This document shows, piece after piece, positions 27,293 through 33,855 of a stretch of 33,855 nucleotides of DNA. The notes below the pieces were generated by a model that worked only from the letters and a program-made list of their open reading frames with translations, was not told the origin of the DNA and did not search any database. Numbering within the stretch: the first letter of the stretch is position 1; each line of letters opens with the position of its first letter. Location of the stretch: contig QHZY01000045.1 of the NCBI GenBank assembly GCA_003224855.1, positions 1 through 33,855 on the forward strand. The letters run 5' to 3'. Made by a program: the position numbers and the translations under genes. This DNA comes from Acidobacteriota bacterium (lineage in GTDB: Bacteria > Acidobacteriota > Terriglobia > Terriglobales > Acidobacteriaceae).

Positions 27293-28525
27293 TCAAACGT
27301 TCTTCCATAAATCGGAGCGCGGATCTTCTGGATTCAGCTTTGCCAATTCTCTCAACAGTTCTTTGGTTTTCTCGTCGCGGGGCATCGGAACTGTAACTTT
27401 GATCTCGACGATCTCATCCCCGCGGTGACCTTCTCTGGTAGCTGACGGTACCCCCTTTTCCCGCAGGCGCAACTTCTGCCCGGACTGGGTGCCAGGCGGA
27501 ATCTTGAGCTGCGCGCGACCGTCAATGGTTGGAACTTCAACCTTAGCCCCCAGAGCAGCTTCTGTTGCCGTCACCGGAACGGTGATGTAGATGTCATCGC
27601 CCTCGCGGCGGAACACCGCATGCGGCTCGGTGCGAATGATCACATACAGATCGCCGGCTGAACCTCCATGCGGGCCCGCGTTTCCCTTGCCCGGTATGCG
27701 GATGCGCTGCCCGTCTCGCGTGCCCGCCTTGATGCGGACCTCCAGCGGTTCAGTGCGATCGACTGTGCCTTCTCCGTGACAGACCGGGCAAGTGGAAAGG
27801 TTCTTGCCGGTTCCGTGACAGCGTGGACACGGCACGTTGAACTTCATGCGCCCGCCGGTTTGCTCGATCGTACCCTTGCCCTTGCATTGCGGGCACACGC
27901 CCGGAGCTTCAATGTAGCCGTTCCCACGACAATTTGCACAGGTATCGCGCCGTGTAATGTTCAAGCGCATTACTCCGCCCCGGATTGCTGTCCAGAACGG
28001 TACGTTTACCTGATACTCGAGATCCGTTCCCGGCTCGGGCCCCTGCGCCGTTGCTCCGCCGCGTCCGCCAAAGATGCCGGAGAAAATATCGCGAAAGCCT
28101 CCGCCGCTGCCGCTCTGCCGCCGCCCGCTGCCTGTGGCCCCGCCACCCTCGAAGAGGTCGGAAAAATCGAATCCGCCGAAGTCGAAATTCGCGCCTTGCG
28201 CAGTTCCTCCGCCAGTGTGAGGCACGCCGCCGAAACCTCCAGCGCCGGTCGGCCCGCCGCGCGCATAGGCTTCTGCCGCAGCCGGATCGATATTGTCGGA
28301 ATAAAAGCCGAGCTGGTCGTAAATCTTGCGCTTTTTAGGATCGCTCAGGACGTCATTGGCTTCGGAGATGGCTTTGAACTTTTCTTCCGCGGTCTTGTCT
28401 CCGGGGTTGACGTCGGGATGGTACTTGCGGGCAAGCTTACGAAACGCCTTGCGGATGTCCTCGGCCGAGGCGGATTTTTTAACGCCCAGCGCTTCGTAAT
28501 AATCTTTTTTATGATTGGTCGCCAT
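27293..28525 (-). CDS. dnaJ: Chaperone DnaJ (type I Hsp40)
   Basis: 410 aa. Co-chaperone that delivers unfolded clients to DnaK and stimulates its ATPase. J domain (8-72) with HPD at 36-38; a long Gly/Phe-rich linker (about 85-165, including [14 protein letters not shown]); the zinc domain (196-254) with all four CxxCxGxG repeats ([32 protein letters not shown]); then the substrate-binding C-terminal domains. All motifs are intact. Last gene of the apparent dnaK-unknown-unknown-dnaJ cluster; 120 bp separate it from the preceding small gene. RBS weak (AGGA about 17 nt before the ATG at 28525). Confidence 0.96.
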
Positions 28526-28938: not shown

Positions 28939-29304
28939 TTATCTCGCCTTGAGGCGCTGCACTCCGGCACGATTGAGAAATTCCGGTTCGATCCAGATCG
29001 TGTTCAAACCAAATTTCTTCCTCACAACCGGGCTCTTGCTTACTTCAAGTTCGACATATTCATAACGATCAAAACCGTACACTGTGAAAACGCGTCCCAA
29101 ACAGAAGCGAAACAGCTCCGCGGTCCTCATCTCCCGTCGTTCCGAATCCTTGAAGTCATACTCCGGATCCTTCAAATCCTCGGGGATCTCGATAATCCGA
29201 ACTCGATCCCCAACTTCGAGCTTTTCGCCTATGGCGCGAGGGGCTGCTCTTGCGAGCAGCCCCCCTTTTGCTCGTTTTGCGGCTTTCTTATTTCTTGTCT
29301 TCAA
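28939..29304 (-). CDS. Unknown protein, SH3-like KOW/translation-type beta fold guessed
   Basis: 121 aa as the open frame from TTG 29304, which would overlap the dnaK stop by 17 nt. The believable part starts about residue 29 ([18 protein letters not shown]) and continues [33 protein letters not shown] to [16 protein letters not shown]... GRVFTVYGF resembles small SH3-like beta barrels, but I recognise no family. The first 28 residues are basic and are encoded partly by a GC-rich hairpin (29240-29263), and no other ATG/GTG/TTG lies between, so the start is unsure. Same direction as dnaK and directly downstream; translational coupling is possible. Confidence 0.6.
29240..29263 (-). promoter_or_regulatory. 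Strong hairpin with GNRA (GCAA) loop just after dnaK
   Basis: A perfect 10-bp stem, GGGGCTGCTC/GAGCAGCCCC, whose loop on the minus-strand transcript is GCAA, a GNRA tetraloop. It starts 25 nt past the dnaK stop codon. No T-run follows on the minus strand, so it looks like an mRNA stabiliser or processing/attenuation structure rather than an intrinsic terminator. On the plus strand it is followed by CCTTTTG but no gene reads into it. Confidence 0.5.
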
Positions 29305-31207
29305 CGTCCACGTACTCGGCGTCGATCACGCCTTCATCTTTTTTCTGGCCCCCGCCGTTTGCCCCCGGCTCCGGACCTGCCGTCGGCCCAGCGCCCGGTG
29401 CAGGCTGCGCTGCCTTGTACATCTGCTCGGCCAGCTTGTGCGAAGCCTGCGTCAGAGTTTCGCGCGCGCGGTCCATCTGCGCCTTGTCGTTCGACTCCAG
29501 CGCCTTCTTGGCGTCCGCCAAAGCGTTTTCAACATCGCCGCGTTCGGCACCAGAGATCTTGTCACCCGACTCGCGCATCATCTTCTCGATCTGATAAACC
29601 ATGGTGTCCAGCTGGTTCTTCGAATCGATCGACTCGCGCTGCGCCTTATCTTCAGCCGCATGCGACTCCGCGTCCTTCGCCATGCTTTCGACTTCTTCCT
29701 TCGACAGACCCGAAGACGAGGTGATCGTGATCTTCTGGTCTTTGCCCGTGGCATTGTCCTTCGCGGTCACATTCAGAATGCCATTGGCATCGATGTCGAA
29801 CGTTACTTCGATTTGCGGCAAGCCACGCGGCGCCGGCGGAATGCCGGTCAGGTGGAACTTGCCAAGGGTCCGGTTCTGCGCAGCCATGGGACGTTCGCCC
29901 TGCAGCACGTGAACCTCAACCGAGGTCTGATTGTCAGCCGCAGTCGAAAACGTCTCCGACTTGCGGGTCGGAATCGTGGTGTTGCGCGGAATCATCGGTG
30001 TCGCTACGCCGCCCAGCGTTTCAATCGCCAGGGTCAGCGGAGTCACGTCGAGCAAAAGCAGGTCCTTGACTTCGCCTTTGAGCACGCCACCCTGAATGGC
30101 CGCCCCCACTGCGACGACTTCGTCCGGGTTCACGCCCTTGTGGCCTTCTTTTCCAAACAGCTCTTTCACCAGCTGCTGGATGCGCGGCATACGCGTCTGT
30201 CCGCCGACCAAAACCACTTCATTGATCTTGCTGGCATCCACGCCGGCGTCTTTCATGCACTGTTTGCATGGCCCAACCGACTTCTGAATGATGTCTTCCA
30301 CCATGCCTTCGAGCTTGGCCCGAGTCAGTTTCTTGACCAGGTGCTTCGGCCCGCCGGCATCAGCCGTGATGAAGGGCAGATTGATCTCTGTCTCCATCGT
30401 CGTCGAGAGCTCAATTTTGGCCCGCTCGGCTGCGTCACGCAGACGCTGCAGCGCCATCTCGTTGCCCTTGCCACGCAAGTCGAGGCCTTCATCTTTCTTG
30501 AACTCATCAATCAGCCAATCCACCAGCTTCTGGTCGATGTTGTCGCCGCCCAGGTGGGTGTCGCCATTGGTGGCTTTGACTTCAATCACGCCTTCGCCGA
30601 CTTCAAGAATCGAAATGTCGAACGTCCCACCGCCGAAGTCGTAAACCGCGATGGTCTCGTCTTTCTTCTTATCCAGACCGTAGGCCAGCGCAGCTGCCGT
30701 CGGCTCGTTGATGATTCGCTTTACATCAAGCCCGGCGATCTGCCCGGCATCTTTGGTCGCCTGCCGTTGGGCGTCATTGAAGTACGCCGGCACGGTGATA
30801 ACCGCTTCCGTGACCTTCTCGCCGAGGTAATCTTCTGCCGCCTTTTTCAACTTTTGAAGAATCATGGCGGAGATCTGCGGAGGCGTATATTCCTTGCCTT
30901 GCGCCAGCACCGCCACGTGGTCGCCGGATTTGATCACCTTGTAAGGAACCATTTTGATTTCTTCGCCAACTTCGTCATAGCGCCGTCCCATGAAGCGCTT
31001 GATCGAATAAACCGTATTCTCCGGGTTGGTTATCGCCTGGCGTTTGGCTACCTGCCCGACCAGCCGTTCGCCGGTTTTAGTAAAACCCACTACGGAGGGA
31101 GTGGTCCGTCCCCCTTCTTCGTTAGGAACGACCTTGGGCTCTCCACCTTCCATCACCGCCACGCAGGAATTGGTGGTGCCGAGATCGATTCCAATAATTT
31201 TAGCCAT
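29288..31207 (-). CDS. dnaK: Chaperone DnaK (Hsp70)
   Basis: 639 aa, ATG 31207 with AAAGGAG 7 nt upstream. ATP-driven chaperone that binds exposed hydrophobic peptides and cycles with DnaJ and GrpE. The ATPase domain (1-385) has [36 protein letters not shown] and [10 protein letters not shown]; the linker [12 protein letters not shown] is intact; then the beta substrate-binding domain and helical lid. The tail is Gly/Pro/Ala-rich and ends EYVDVEDKK, close to the usual EEVxD-like bacterial end. First gene of the cluster that ends with dnaJ; no grpE is present in the window. A good promoter with a HAIR-like repeat lies upstream, so heat-shock control by an HspR-type repressor is likely. Confidence 0.98.
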
Positions 31208-31270
31208 AATTGGCTCCTTTCACTTCTATAAGTGCTTTGTAATCAACGAATCGCTGTTGCGCTCAGAAAT

Positions 31271-31299
31271 ATTATGAGAGTTGAGTCAAACACTGTCAA
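31271..31299 (-). promoter_or_regulatory. dnaK promoter, sigma70 type
   Basis: On the minus strand a perfect TTGACA (31299-31294) is followed after 17 bp by CATAAT (31276-31271, 5/6 matches). It lies 64 bp upstream of the dnaK ATG. It is the best promoter in the window and is overlapped by the inverted repeat at 31280-31300. Confidence 0.7.
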
Positions 31300-31300
31300 G
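31280..31300. promoter_or_regulatory. HAIR-like inverted repeat (candidate HspR operator) at dnaK
   Basis: GTTGAGT-N7-TGTCAAG on the plus strand agrees with the HspR-binding HAIR consensus CTTGAGT-N7-ACTCAAG at 11 of 14 positions, with the exact 7-bp spacer. It covers the -35 and most of the spacer of the dnaK promoter, the right place for repression. The classic CIRCE element (HrcA site) is absent. No hspR gene is in the window. Confidence 0.5.
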
Positions 31301-31429
31301 TTTTAGATGCGGATAAGATGGGGTCGGATGCGGGGTTTTGAACGGTTTCGAAGGATCGACGTTAACCGGTCAAAGTCGCGCCTGATCCTGTCGACAAATC
31401 TTCAAGAAGAATGACCGAAGAGAATAGGA

Positions 31430-31467: not shown

Positions 31468-33855
31468 CTAGTTGATGTCGAACTGTTCCTGATGCAGCGC
31501 GGGATCGCTCTTTATGATCACCGTTTTCTTGGTCAATTCTTCCATTTCGTTGAGCGCGCGTCCATTGTTGGATTTCAGCGCCTTGGCGACCTCCGGATTT
31601 ACCCGCAGCATCACGTCAGGATGCTCGAGGTGCTTGGACAATTTGCGCATCTCCACATAAATCTCGTTGCAGATGGTGTTGACGGATTTTACGAAACCGG
31701 TAGCTGAGCAATACGGGCAGGGGGTGCCGATGGTGCGCTCAAGCGACTGCTTCACTCTTTTGCGAGTGATGGCAACCAGGCCGAAGTCGTTAAACTGCAA
31801 TACTTTCGAGGGAGCTCTGTCGCTGCGCAGGGCTTCTTCGAGCGCCTGCATCACTTTCTGGCGATTGCGGCGTTCGTCCATGTCAATAAAATCAATCACA
31901 ATAATGCCGCCCAGGTCGCGCAACCGAATCTGGCGGACGATCTCTTTGATCGCGTCCACGTTGGTCTTGACGATGGTGTCTTCCAGGCGCGCGGTCTTGC
32001 CTACGTATTTACCTGTGTTTACATCGATGGCGACCAAAGCTTCGGTCTGATTGATCACGATGTAGCCGCCGCTCTTTAGCCAGACTTTTGACTTCAGCGC
32101 TTTGTTGATTTCTTCCGTCAGGCCGAACTGCTCGAACAGCGGGGTTTCTTTGCTATAGAGCTTTACGCGTCTTACCAGTGCCGGCTGGAAACGGTTGGCG
32201 AAGCGCAAGATACGCTCGTATTCCTGCTCGGTGTCCACCCAGATGGCGGCAAAGTCTGAGGTTACCTGGTCACGCAGCACGCGCTCGACCACGTTCAGAT
32301 CGTGATAGATCAGCGCCGGCGGTTTCGAGTTATCGGCCCTGGAACGAATCTCGGTCCACAGACCTTTCAGGAAACGGATGTCGGCACGCAACTCGTCCTC
32401 GGAAGCATTCTGGGCCGCGGTGCGCACGATAAATCCGCCGTGCCCATTTTCGCGCTCGCTCAAGATGATGCGCTTCAAGCGCTGGCGCTCTTCGTCTGAA
32501 GCAATTTTGCGCGATACACCGGTGTGGTTCACGGTTGGCATATAAACCAGGAATCGGCCCGGCAAAGCGATGTGGCTGGTGATGCGCGCGCCTTTCTTGC
32601 CGATAGGTTCCTTCGCGATCTGTACCAGGATCTCCTGACCTTCCTTAAGAAGATCAGTGATCAGGGGCAGATTTTGAGGTTCATTTCGACGGAAGCGGCG
32701 TCCCCCCCCACGGCGTCCACGAGGGCCACCACGCCGGTCGTAGGAAGGGCGCGGAGCGCGCTGCGTGTAGCCAGCGGTCGAGGATGGGCCACGAACTTCC
32801 ACTCGGGCGTCTACCGTTCCATTGCCACGGGCTTCAGCCTCAATTGCAGCTTCTGCTTCTGCCTGCGCTTCCTCAAGCTCTGCTTCCTGCTCTGATACGT
32901 CCTCCACTTCTTCGGTTTGCGCCAGCTCGGCTTCTTCCGCAGCCACCGGGTCGGAAGAAAACGGAACGGTCTCGATGCTCACGGTCTCTGCCGACGCGGC
33001 CAGCTCGTGCGCGGGATGATAATCTCCGGCCGCGTGGGTCTCCTCTTCCAATTCTTCAAACGCCGCATCTTCTTCAAGCTCTTCGACGTAGTGGGCGAGG
33101 TCTGCTTCCTCCTCCTCGATTTCCTCTTCCTCGGTGATGCCGGCCGCGGCCTTCATCGGCGTGACTGCGAACAGATCAGAATCGTCCAGATGAATTTCGC
33201 CTGAGTCGTCGCTGGATGACTCTTCTTCTAACTCCTGGATCCTGTTCGATGACGGCTGGCTCTGGCGCATGAGATCACTGTGATCTGCGGTCTGGAACTC
33301 GCCATTACTCTTAGAGCCGGGCGTATCATCCTGGCCCTGGGCTAGCTGTGTTTCGGCAAAGGCGGGTTCGTCTTGAGGGAACGCTCGGGCGATGGATGCG
33401 GAGAGTGATTCGGCGGCAGGTGATGACGGGGCTGCAGCCTGTACAGGCTTCTTATATTTCGAGATCGACTCTCCCGGCAGTACGATCGGCTCATATCCCG
33501 CAGGCGGCCCGTAACTCGGGCGTTCAGCGCGCTGCGGCTCCTCTACCGGACGGGCAAACTTCGATTCCTGGAAGCGCTCACCACGCCGTCCGCGGCGCCG
33601 ACGACGGCTGCGCCAGTTGCCCCGGTCTCTGCTTTCAGCAGCTTCGCCATTCTGAGGATTCTCTGTGGCCTCGCTCTCATCGCTCTGTTCCGCAGGCGCA
33701 GCTGGTGAGGTGGTTACCGGCGGCTCTGCCTCCTGATATCTGGGTTCAGGGGAAGGCCGGCCGGTCGGGACTTCCTCCAGCTCATCCTGATCCTCCAGTT
33801 CCATGAAATCGGAAACGTAAAGGAAGGCGTCGCGCTCCAGGCCAATATCCACGAA
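31468..33855 (-). CDS. Rne/Rng family ribonuclease (RNase E/G), 5' end outside window
   Basis: About 795 residues visible; the frame is open through the right edge, reading FVDIGLERDAFLYVSDF, so the true start lies beyond base 33855 (the GTG at 33852 is internal to the S1 domain). Endoribonuclease for mRNA decay and rRNA processing. The second part of the S1 domain resumes at about 32670 (DLLKEGQEILVQIAKEP). Then come the RNase H-like and 5'-sensor regions, and the catalytic Asp residues in VAIDVNTG and IVIDFIDM. The zinc-link is CPYCSATG; the gene ends DPALHQEQFDIN, as in RNase G. Between the S1 halves lies a roughly 375-residue insert, very acidic (EEEEIEEEE) and then Arg/Gly-rich (RRGGPRGRRGGGRR). 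No degradosome scaffold follows the catalytic core. Confidence 0.92.
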   Translation of the reverse strand, partial: FVDIGLERDAFLYVSDFMELEDQDELEEVPTGRPSPEPRYQEAEPPVTTSPAAPAEQSDESEATENPQNGEAAESRDRGNWRSRRRRRGRRGERFQESKFARPVEEPQRAERPSYGPPAGYEPIVLPGESISKYKKPVQAAAPSSPAAESLSASIARAFPQDEPAFAETQLAQGQDDTPGSKSNGEFQTADHSDLMRQSQPSSNRIQELEEESSSDDSGEIHLDDSDLFAVTPMKAAAGITEEEEIEEEEADLAHYVEELEEDAAFEELEEETHAAGDYHPAHELAASAETVSIETVPFSSDPVAAEEAELAQTEEVEDVSEQEAELEEAQAEAEAAIEAEARGNGTVDARVEVRGPSSTAGYTQRAPRPSYDRRGGPRGRRGGGRRFRRNEPQNLPLITDLLKEGQEILVQIAKEPIGKKGARITSHIALPGRFLVYMPTVNHTGVSRKIASDEERQRLKRIILSERENGHGGFIVRTAAQNASEDELRADIRFLKGLWTEIRSRADNSKPPALIYHDLNVVERVLRDQVTSDFAAIWVDTEQEYERILRFANRFQPALVRRVKLYSKETPLFEQFGLTEEINKALKSKVWLKSGGYIVINQTEALVAIDVNTGKYVGKTARLEDTIVKTNVDAIKEIVRQIRLRDLGGIIVIDFIDMDERRNRQKVMQALEEALRSDRAPSKVLQFNDFGLVAITRKRVKQSLERTIGTPCPYCSATGFVKSVNTICNEIYVEMRKLSKHLEHPDVMLRVNPEVAKALKSNNGRALNEMEELTKKTVIIKSDPALHQEQFDIN

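Follow-up and report, generated by a model that had tools for sequence, protein, structure and literature searches.

The 33,855-nt window (the whole stretch of DNA that was analyzed), which comes from a soil member of the Acidobacteriota, carries dnaK and dnaJ on the − strand. dnaK, the proposed target of the regulation described here, lies at 29288..31207 and encodes 639 amino acids that score 1017 bits against the NCBIfam DnaK model (cut-off, 648). A Shine-Dalgarno-like AAGGAG was read from the sequence at 31214..31219 (− strand). dnaJ (27293..28525), recognized from the ORF list and profile matches, runs in the same direction and is probably in the same operon. Between the two, the ORF list places a 121-residue frame (28939..29304, − strand) that overlaps the end of dnaK and is possibly cotranscribed; it matched nothing in NCBIfam or Pfam. 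Directly upstream of dnaK, at 31468-33852 on the − strand, lies the gene for a protein of the RNase E/G family whose N terminus is extended by a long acidic stretch.

The dnaK upstream region contains, at positions 31280-31300 of the + strand, the sequence GTTGAGTCAAACACTGTCAAG. Read on the dnaK (−) strand from 31300 to 31280, this is CTTGACA-GTGTTTG-ACTCAAC, that is, two inverted 7-nt arms (left, 31294..31300; right, 31280..31286) held apart by a 7-nt spacer (GTGTTTG, 31287..31293). The HAIR consensus of Streptomyces, through which HspR controls dnaK, is CTTGAGT-N7-ACTCAAG, as given in PMC7464140 and PMC6102357. A sequence-only reading of this DNA had claimed a HAIR-like match at 11 of 14 positions with exact N7 spacing, overlapping a near-consensus promoter, and rescoring of the window confirmed both points. 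The promoter, TTGACA-N17-CATAAT (− strand, 31299..31271), agrees with the consensus at 11 of 12 positions. Its −35 box (TTGACA, 31299..31294) doubles as part of the left arm, which is close to CTTGAGT; the right arm, close to ACTCAAG, falls within the −35/−10 spacer and is followed on the − strand by TCT and then by the −10 box (CATAAT, 31271..31276), 17 nt from TTGACA. The interval 31271-31300 is therefore correct, as originally proposed, for the operator plus the −10 box. Two of the three departures from HAIR, C and A in the left arm, complete TTGACA, and the third, the final C of ACTCAAC, is also found in 8 of 56 relatives. Immediately 5' of the −35 box (window positions ~31301-31310, − strand) lies a CATCTAAA-like block (columns −10 to −2), which shows moderate conservation among the dnaK promoters of the family and recurs in the hrcA leader of the same genome (L001, near 2493).

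Within the window, the dnaK site is the sole HAIR match with three or fewer mismatches. Shuffled windows gave a mean of 0.95 such matches, with at least one in 59 of 100 shuffles; thus, the HAIR likeness of the site is not significant when taken alone. When the 400-nt stretch upstream of dnaK was subjected to mononucleotide shuffling, a score of 11 was reached in 1.1% of cases. Since an 11/14 match by itself is at chance level, the case for a dnaK operator rests on conservation.

Conservation was assessed in 60 genomes of the family, one per genus. A usable dnaK upstream region was available in 57 (G036, G037, and G042, with no usable dnaK start, were left out), and second dnaK copies were omitted from the alignment. 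TTGACA-N7-ACTCA, with 10 or 11 of its 11 positions matched and the spacing exact, precedes dnaK in 56 of the 57 genomes, so that both half-sites, whose conservation the sequence-only reading had named as a check, are kept. In the alignment, TTGAC is invariant (56/56), ACTCA is kept in 55 to 56 of 56 genomes per column, and the consensus of the relatives for the right arm is ACTCAAG. Within the −10 box, base 2 (A) and base 6 (T) are each shared by 54 of 56 aligned relatives, and columns past the −10 box or upstream of about −12 mostly hold less than 0.3 bits. The sole exception in the family, G013, has hspR and a dnaK upstream region without the site; the site is also missing at the dnaK paralogues of G011, G027, and G051. 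Among named relatives (Terriglobales or Acidobacteriaceae MAGs, including Candidatus Sulfotelmatobacter), all 38 dnaK starts recognized in 80 loci are preceded by the site with a score of 10 or 11 out of 11, in a set that overlaps the family set (some contigs are identical). The similarity to HAIR is weak alone, yet the site is kept in 56 of 57 genomes while most flanking positions vary, which makes the match convincing.

HspR proteins as a class bind HAIR and repress transcription, with DnaK as corepressor. The genome from which the window derives (G000; 3.74 Mb, 274 contigs, 92% complete) was searched for hspR, as had been suggested, and an hspR-like gene was found at G000:C211:25984-26382. 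It encodes a 133-residue MerR-type protein (PF13411, 72.7 bits; cut-off, 21.6) whose best NCBIfam model is HspR (NF047375); its score of 104.7 bits falls 0.3 bits short of the curated cut-off of 105, and the best non-HspR MerR-type model scores 55.9. When seven relatives were scanned with the HspR model, three scored above the cut-off, one printed exactly 105, and three fell below. The block HPQTLRLYER is invariant in 12 aligned HspR proteins, and a strong hspR match is present in 58 of the 60 family genomes. An hspR gene within the dnaK operon is the typical, but not a strictly defining, arrangement. Here, hspR is not in the dnaK operon (hspR is on contig C211 and dnaK on C254), and in many relatives it lies roughly 2 to 10 kb downstream of dnaK. 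Autoregulation of hspR through a HAIR of its own was considered and is unsupported: no HAIR of 10/14 or better was found upstream of hspR in this genome, and at 80 named loci HAIR scores reached at most 10/14 in the 300 nt before hspR, or in the shorter stretch available at some of them.

The association between site and regulator was examined across the phylum in 60 Acidobacteriota genomes with completeness of at least 90%. HspR was scored as present at an E value of 4.8e-29 or better, a cut-off picked after viewing the list, at the gap between this value and 1.2e-11; HspR was thereby found in 48 genomes and not found in 12. A site (at least 9/11, within 400 nt of dnaK) was present in 40 of the 48 genomes with HspR versus 1 of the 12 without it (Fisher, 2.3e-6). 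Counts collapsed by family, which stand in for a phylogeny-aware co-loss test, were 29/31 and 1/7, respectively, and with the window's family excluded, the site was found in 36/43 versus 0/11 genomes (Fisher, 3.3e-7). At both scales, then, the site is conserved at the dnaK promoter of relatives with HspR. Genomes with HspR that lack the dnaK site comprise all four genomes of family f21 and a few others. The phylum set includes G075, whose DnaK sequence is 59% identical and perhaps not the orthologue. An hspR match in another genome, G106, carries an in-frame TGA.

HAIR sites had also been predicted at lon, clpB, and hsp20. A scan of the window's genome that allowed up to two mismatches gave 8 distinct sites, about the number expected by chance (~12, by our own arithmetic), and a reversed-pattern control gave 23 per strand, more than the true pattern. 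The only perfect HAIR in the genome, for which ~0.014 would be expected by the same kind of arithmetic, precedes lon; it is symmetric, overlaps the lon ribosome-binding region, and is not positioned as a −35 box. In Streptomyces coelicolor, lon is reportedly an HspR target. The one-mismatch site was rejected as a target as it lies inside a long coding frame, and the two-mismatch sites L009, L012, and L013 were rejected as they revealed no chaperone target. Most relatives have two lon paralogues, and HAIR (12 to 14 of 14) was found upstream of lon-A in 18 of 36 cases and of lon-B in 0 of 34; the other half of the lon-A upstream regions score below 12 of 14. The second lon of the window's genome (G000:C85:3382-5458) is split over two frames, reflecting a frameshift, a pseudogene, or an assembly error. 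At hsp20, a TTGACA-N7-ACTCA-like promoter (at least 9/11) was found in 14 of the 16 loci with a located hsp20 (among 27 clpB loci), and the two misses (L050 and L053) are perhaps start-calling or locus-edge problems. The corresponding hsp20-clpB site of the window's genome is degenerate (ATTGACA-N7-GCTAAAG, 9/11; HAIR, 9/14). The prediction held at lon and, in relatives, at hsp20-clpB; in the genome for which it was made, the hsp20-clpB site is weak.

A regulator other than HspR, for example, a different MerR-type protein, might use the dnaK operator, but we regard this as improbable. The sequence and spacing of the site fit HAIR, its presence tracks HspR across the phylum, and HspR is also the protein suggested by the canonical HAIR of lon-A. 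Pulling the other way are the further MerR-type proteins encoded in the window's genome and one genome of the phylum, G008, listed as 100% complete, which retains the site at dnaK, along with a weak one at lon-A (10/14), and in which a genome search detected no HspR. Recent loss of HspR, an assembly gap, or another regulator are possible explanations for G008. G020 likewise keeps the dnaK site with no HspR found, in an assembly that is only 76% complete.

Less probable again, and in our view very unlikely, is that the region is only a strong sigma-70 promoter in which the TTGACA and TATAAT-like boxes are conserved for their own sake and the likeness to HAIR is due to chance. A match of 11/14 is indeed expected about once per window, and part of it is supplied by TTGACA itself. 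A promoter spacer, however, requires no fixed sequence, and here ACTCA within that spacer is nearly invariant in 56 genomes at a fixed N7. The spacing was controlled for in the 35 HspR genomes outside the family with an exact TTGACA, ACTCA being scored at 4/5 or better: it followed TTGACA at N7 in 27/35 and at N3 in 4/35, and at N4 to N6 or N8 to N11 in 0/35. Among genomes outside the family in which HspR was not found, four have an exact TTGACA no more than 250 nt from dnaK, and none of the four (0/4) has ACTCA at N7.

The gene hrcA, which had also been named as one to look for, is present in the window's genome, where it adjoins grpE and has a weak CIRCE-like site (13/18) upstream, at its own promoter. 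No CIRCE, TTAGCACTC-N9-GAGTGCTAA, was found near dnaK, in agreement with the earlier claim that none is present; the best match in the 400 nt upstream is 10/18. Across the phylum, 0 of 60 genomes have a CIRCE above 11/18 within 400 nt upstream of dnaK, whereas the same scorer found 14 to 18 of 18 at 16 of 19 groEL upstream regions in relatives. Control of dnaK by HrcA and CIRCE, as in Bacillus, is thus the least credible alternative and was rejected, even with hrcA present beside grpE. The groEL gene of the window's genome is truncated, leaving no promoter to read. A few groEL upstream regions in relatives also carry HAIR. The groESL leader of G007 (L305) holds a 17/18 CIRCE whose right arm has GAGTGCTAA in common with a perfect HAIR, CTTGAGTGCTAATCACTCAAG; the two may constitute a composite HspR/HrcA operator. 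HspR and HrcA probably divide the chaperone genes between them.

We put at roughly 0.87 the probability that 31280-31300 is a single HspR operator embedded in a housekeeping-type dnaK promoter, which HspR would repress by occupying it. As the sequence-only reading had proposed, HspR rather than HrcA is the regulator suggested for dnaK, on the strength of the hspR-like gene, the conserved half-sites, and a dnaK upstream region without CIRCE. HspR, encoded elsewhere in the genome, would bind both arms, cover the −35 box and the −35/−10 spacer, and exclude RNA polymerase from the promoter. Release of HspR by heat or by titration of DnaK is known from work on Streptomyces and Mycobacterium. By analogy, unfolded protein would titrate DnaK off HspR, or HspR itself would unfold, and the promoter would be freed. 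HspR would also control lon and, in relatives, hsp20-clpB, and HrcA with CIRCE would serve groESL and hrcA-grpE. Binding, repression, heat induction, and DnaK feedback at dnaK are what we infer from these comparisons. The left arm would be CTTGACA rather than CTTGAGT because TTGACA must also act as the −35 box. That the left-arm mismatches are the bases of TTGACA, and that the lon HAIR is symmetric, suggests that the dnaK operator balances recognition by the repressor against recognition by the sigma factor.

A broader picture for the phylum seems to us reasonably likely, with less assurance than the reading of the dnaK site itself. At dnaK, and within the family at hsp20-clpB, one operator arm would be the −35 hexamer (CTTGACA-N7-ACTCA), with HspR and sigma factor competing for the same bases, and lon would keep a symmetric HAIR. 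The half-site in the spacer would be lost along with HspR, control of the proteostasis genes would be split between HspR (dnaK, hsp20-clpB, and lon) and HrcA (groESL and hrcA-grpE), and in one genus HAIR and CIRCE would be interlocked at groESL. Acidobacteriota are abundant in soil, and these results offer a concrete, testable heat shock regulon for them as well as a dnaK operator motif of use in annotation. They also describe a natural experiment in which a repressor and its operator half-site are lost together and the −35 box can remain. A literature search limited to open-access papers turned up none that deals with control by HspR in Acidobacteriota; the known HspR circuit appears, from the genomic comparisons, to extend to this phylum with a small variant of the operator.

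Among known systems, the arrangement resembles that of Streptomyces in its MerR-type HspR, its 7-nt arms with an N7 spacer, and its proposed dnaK and lon targets (PMC7464140, PMC6102357); it differs in having one operator rather than three, a left arm of CTTGACA, an hspR unlinked to dnaK, and an acidobacterial host. In Helicobacter pylori, HspR and HrcA are likewise both present and a single HAIR-like motif overlaps the promoter, but HspR of that species targets the Pcbp, Pgro, and Phrc promoters, with a footprint that extends over 70 bp (PMC6102357). Both HAIR arms are required for HspR binding (PMC6102357; for Campylobacter jejuni, PMC7464140). C. jejuni shares the two-repressor arrangement of HspR and HrcA, but its groESL and hrcA-grpE-dnaK are under both repressors, whereas here dnaK is apparently under HspR only and groESL mainly under CIRCE (PMC7464140). 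Bifidobacterium has two copies of HAIR at dnaK in most strains and TTGAG in place of the TTGAC seen here, but it has the same division of sites, with HAIR at dnaK and clpB and CIRCE at groESL and hrcA, and the same A-rich stretch ahead of the left half-site (PMC9004370).
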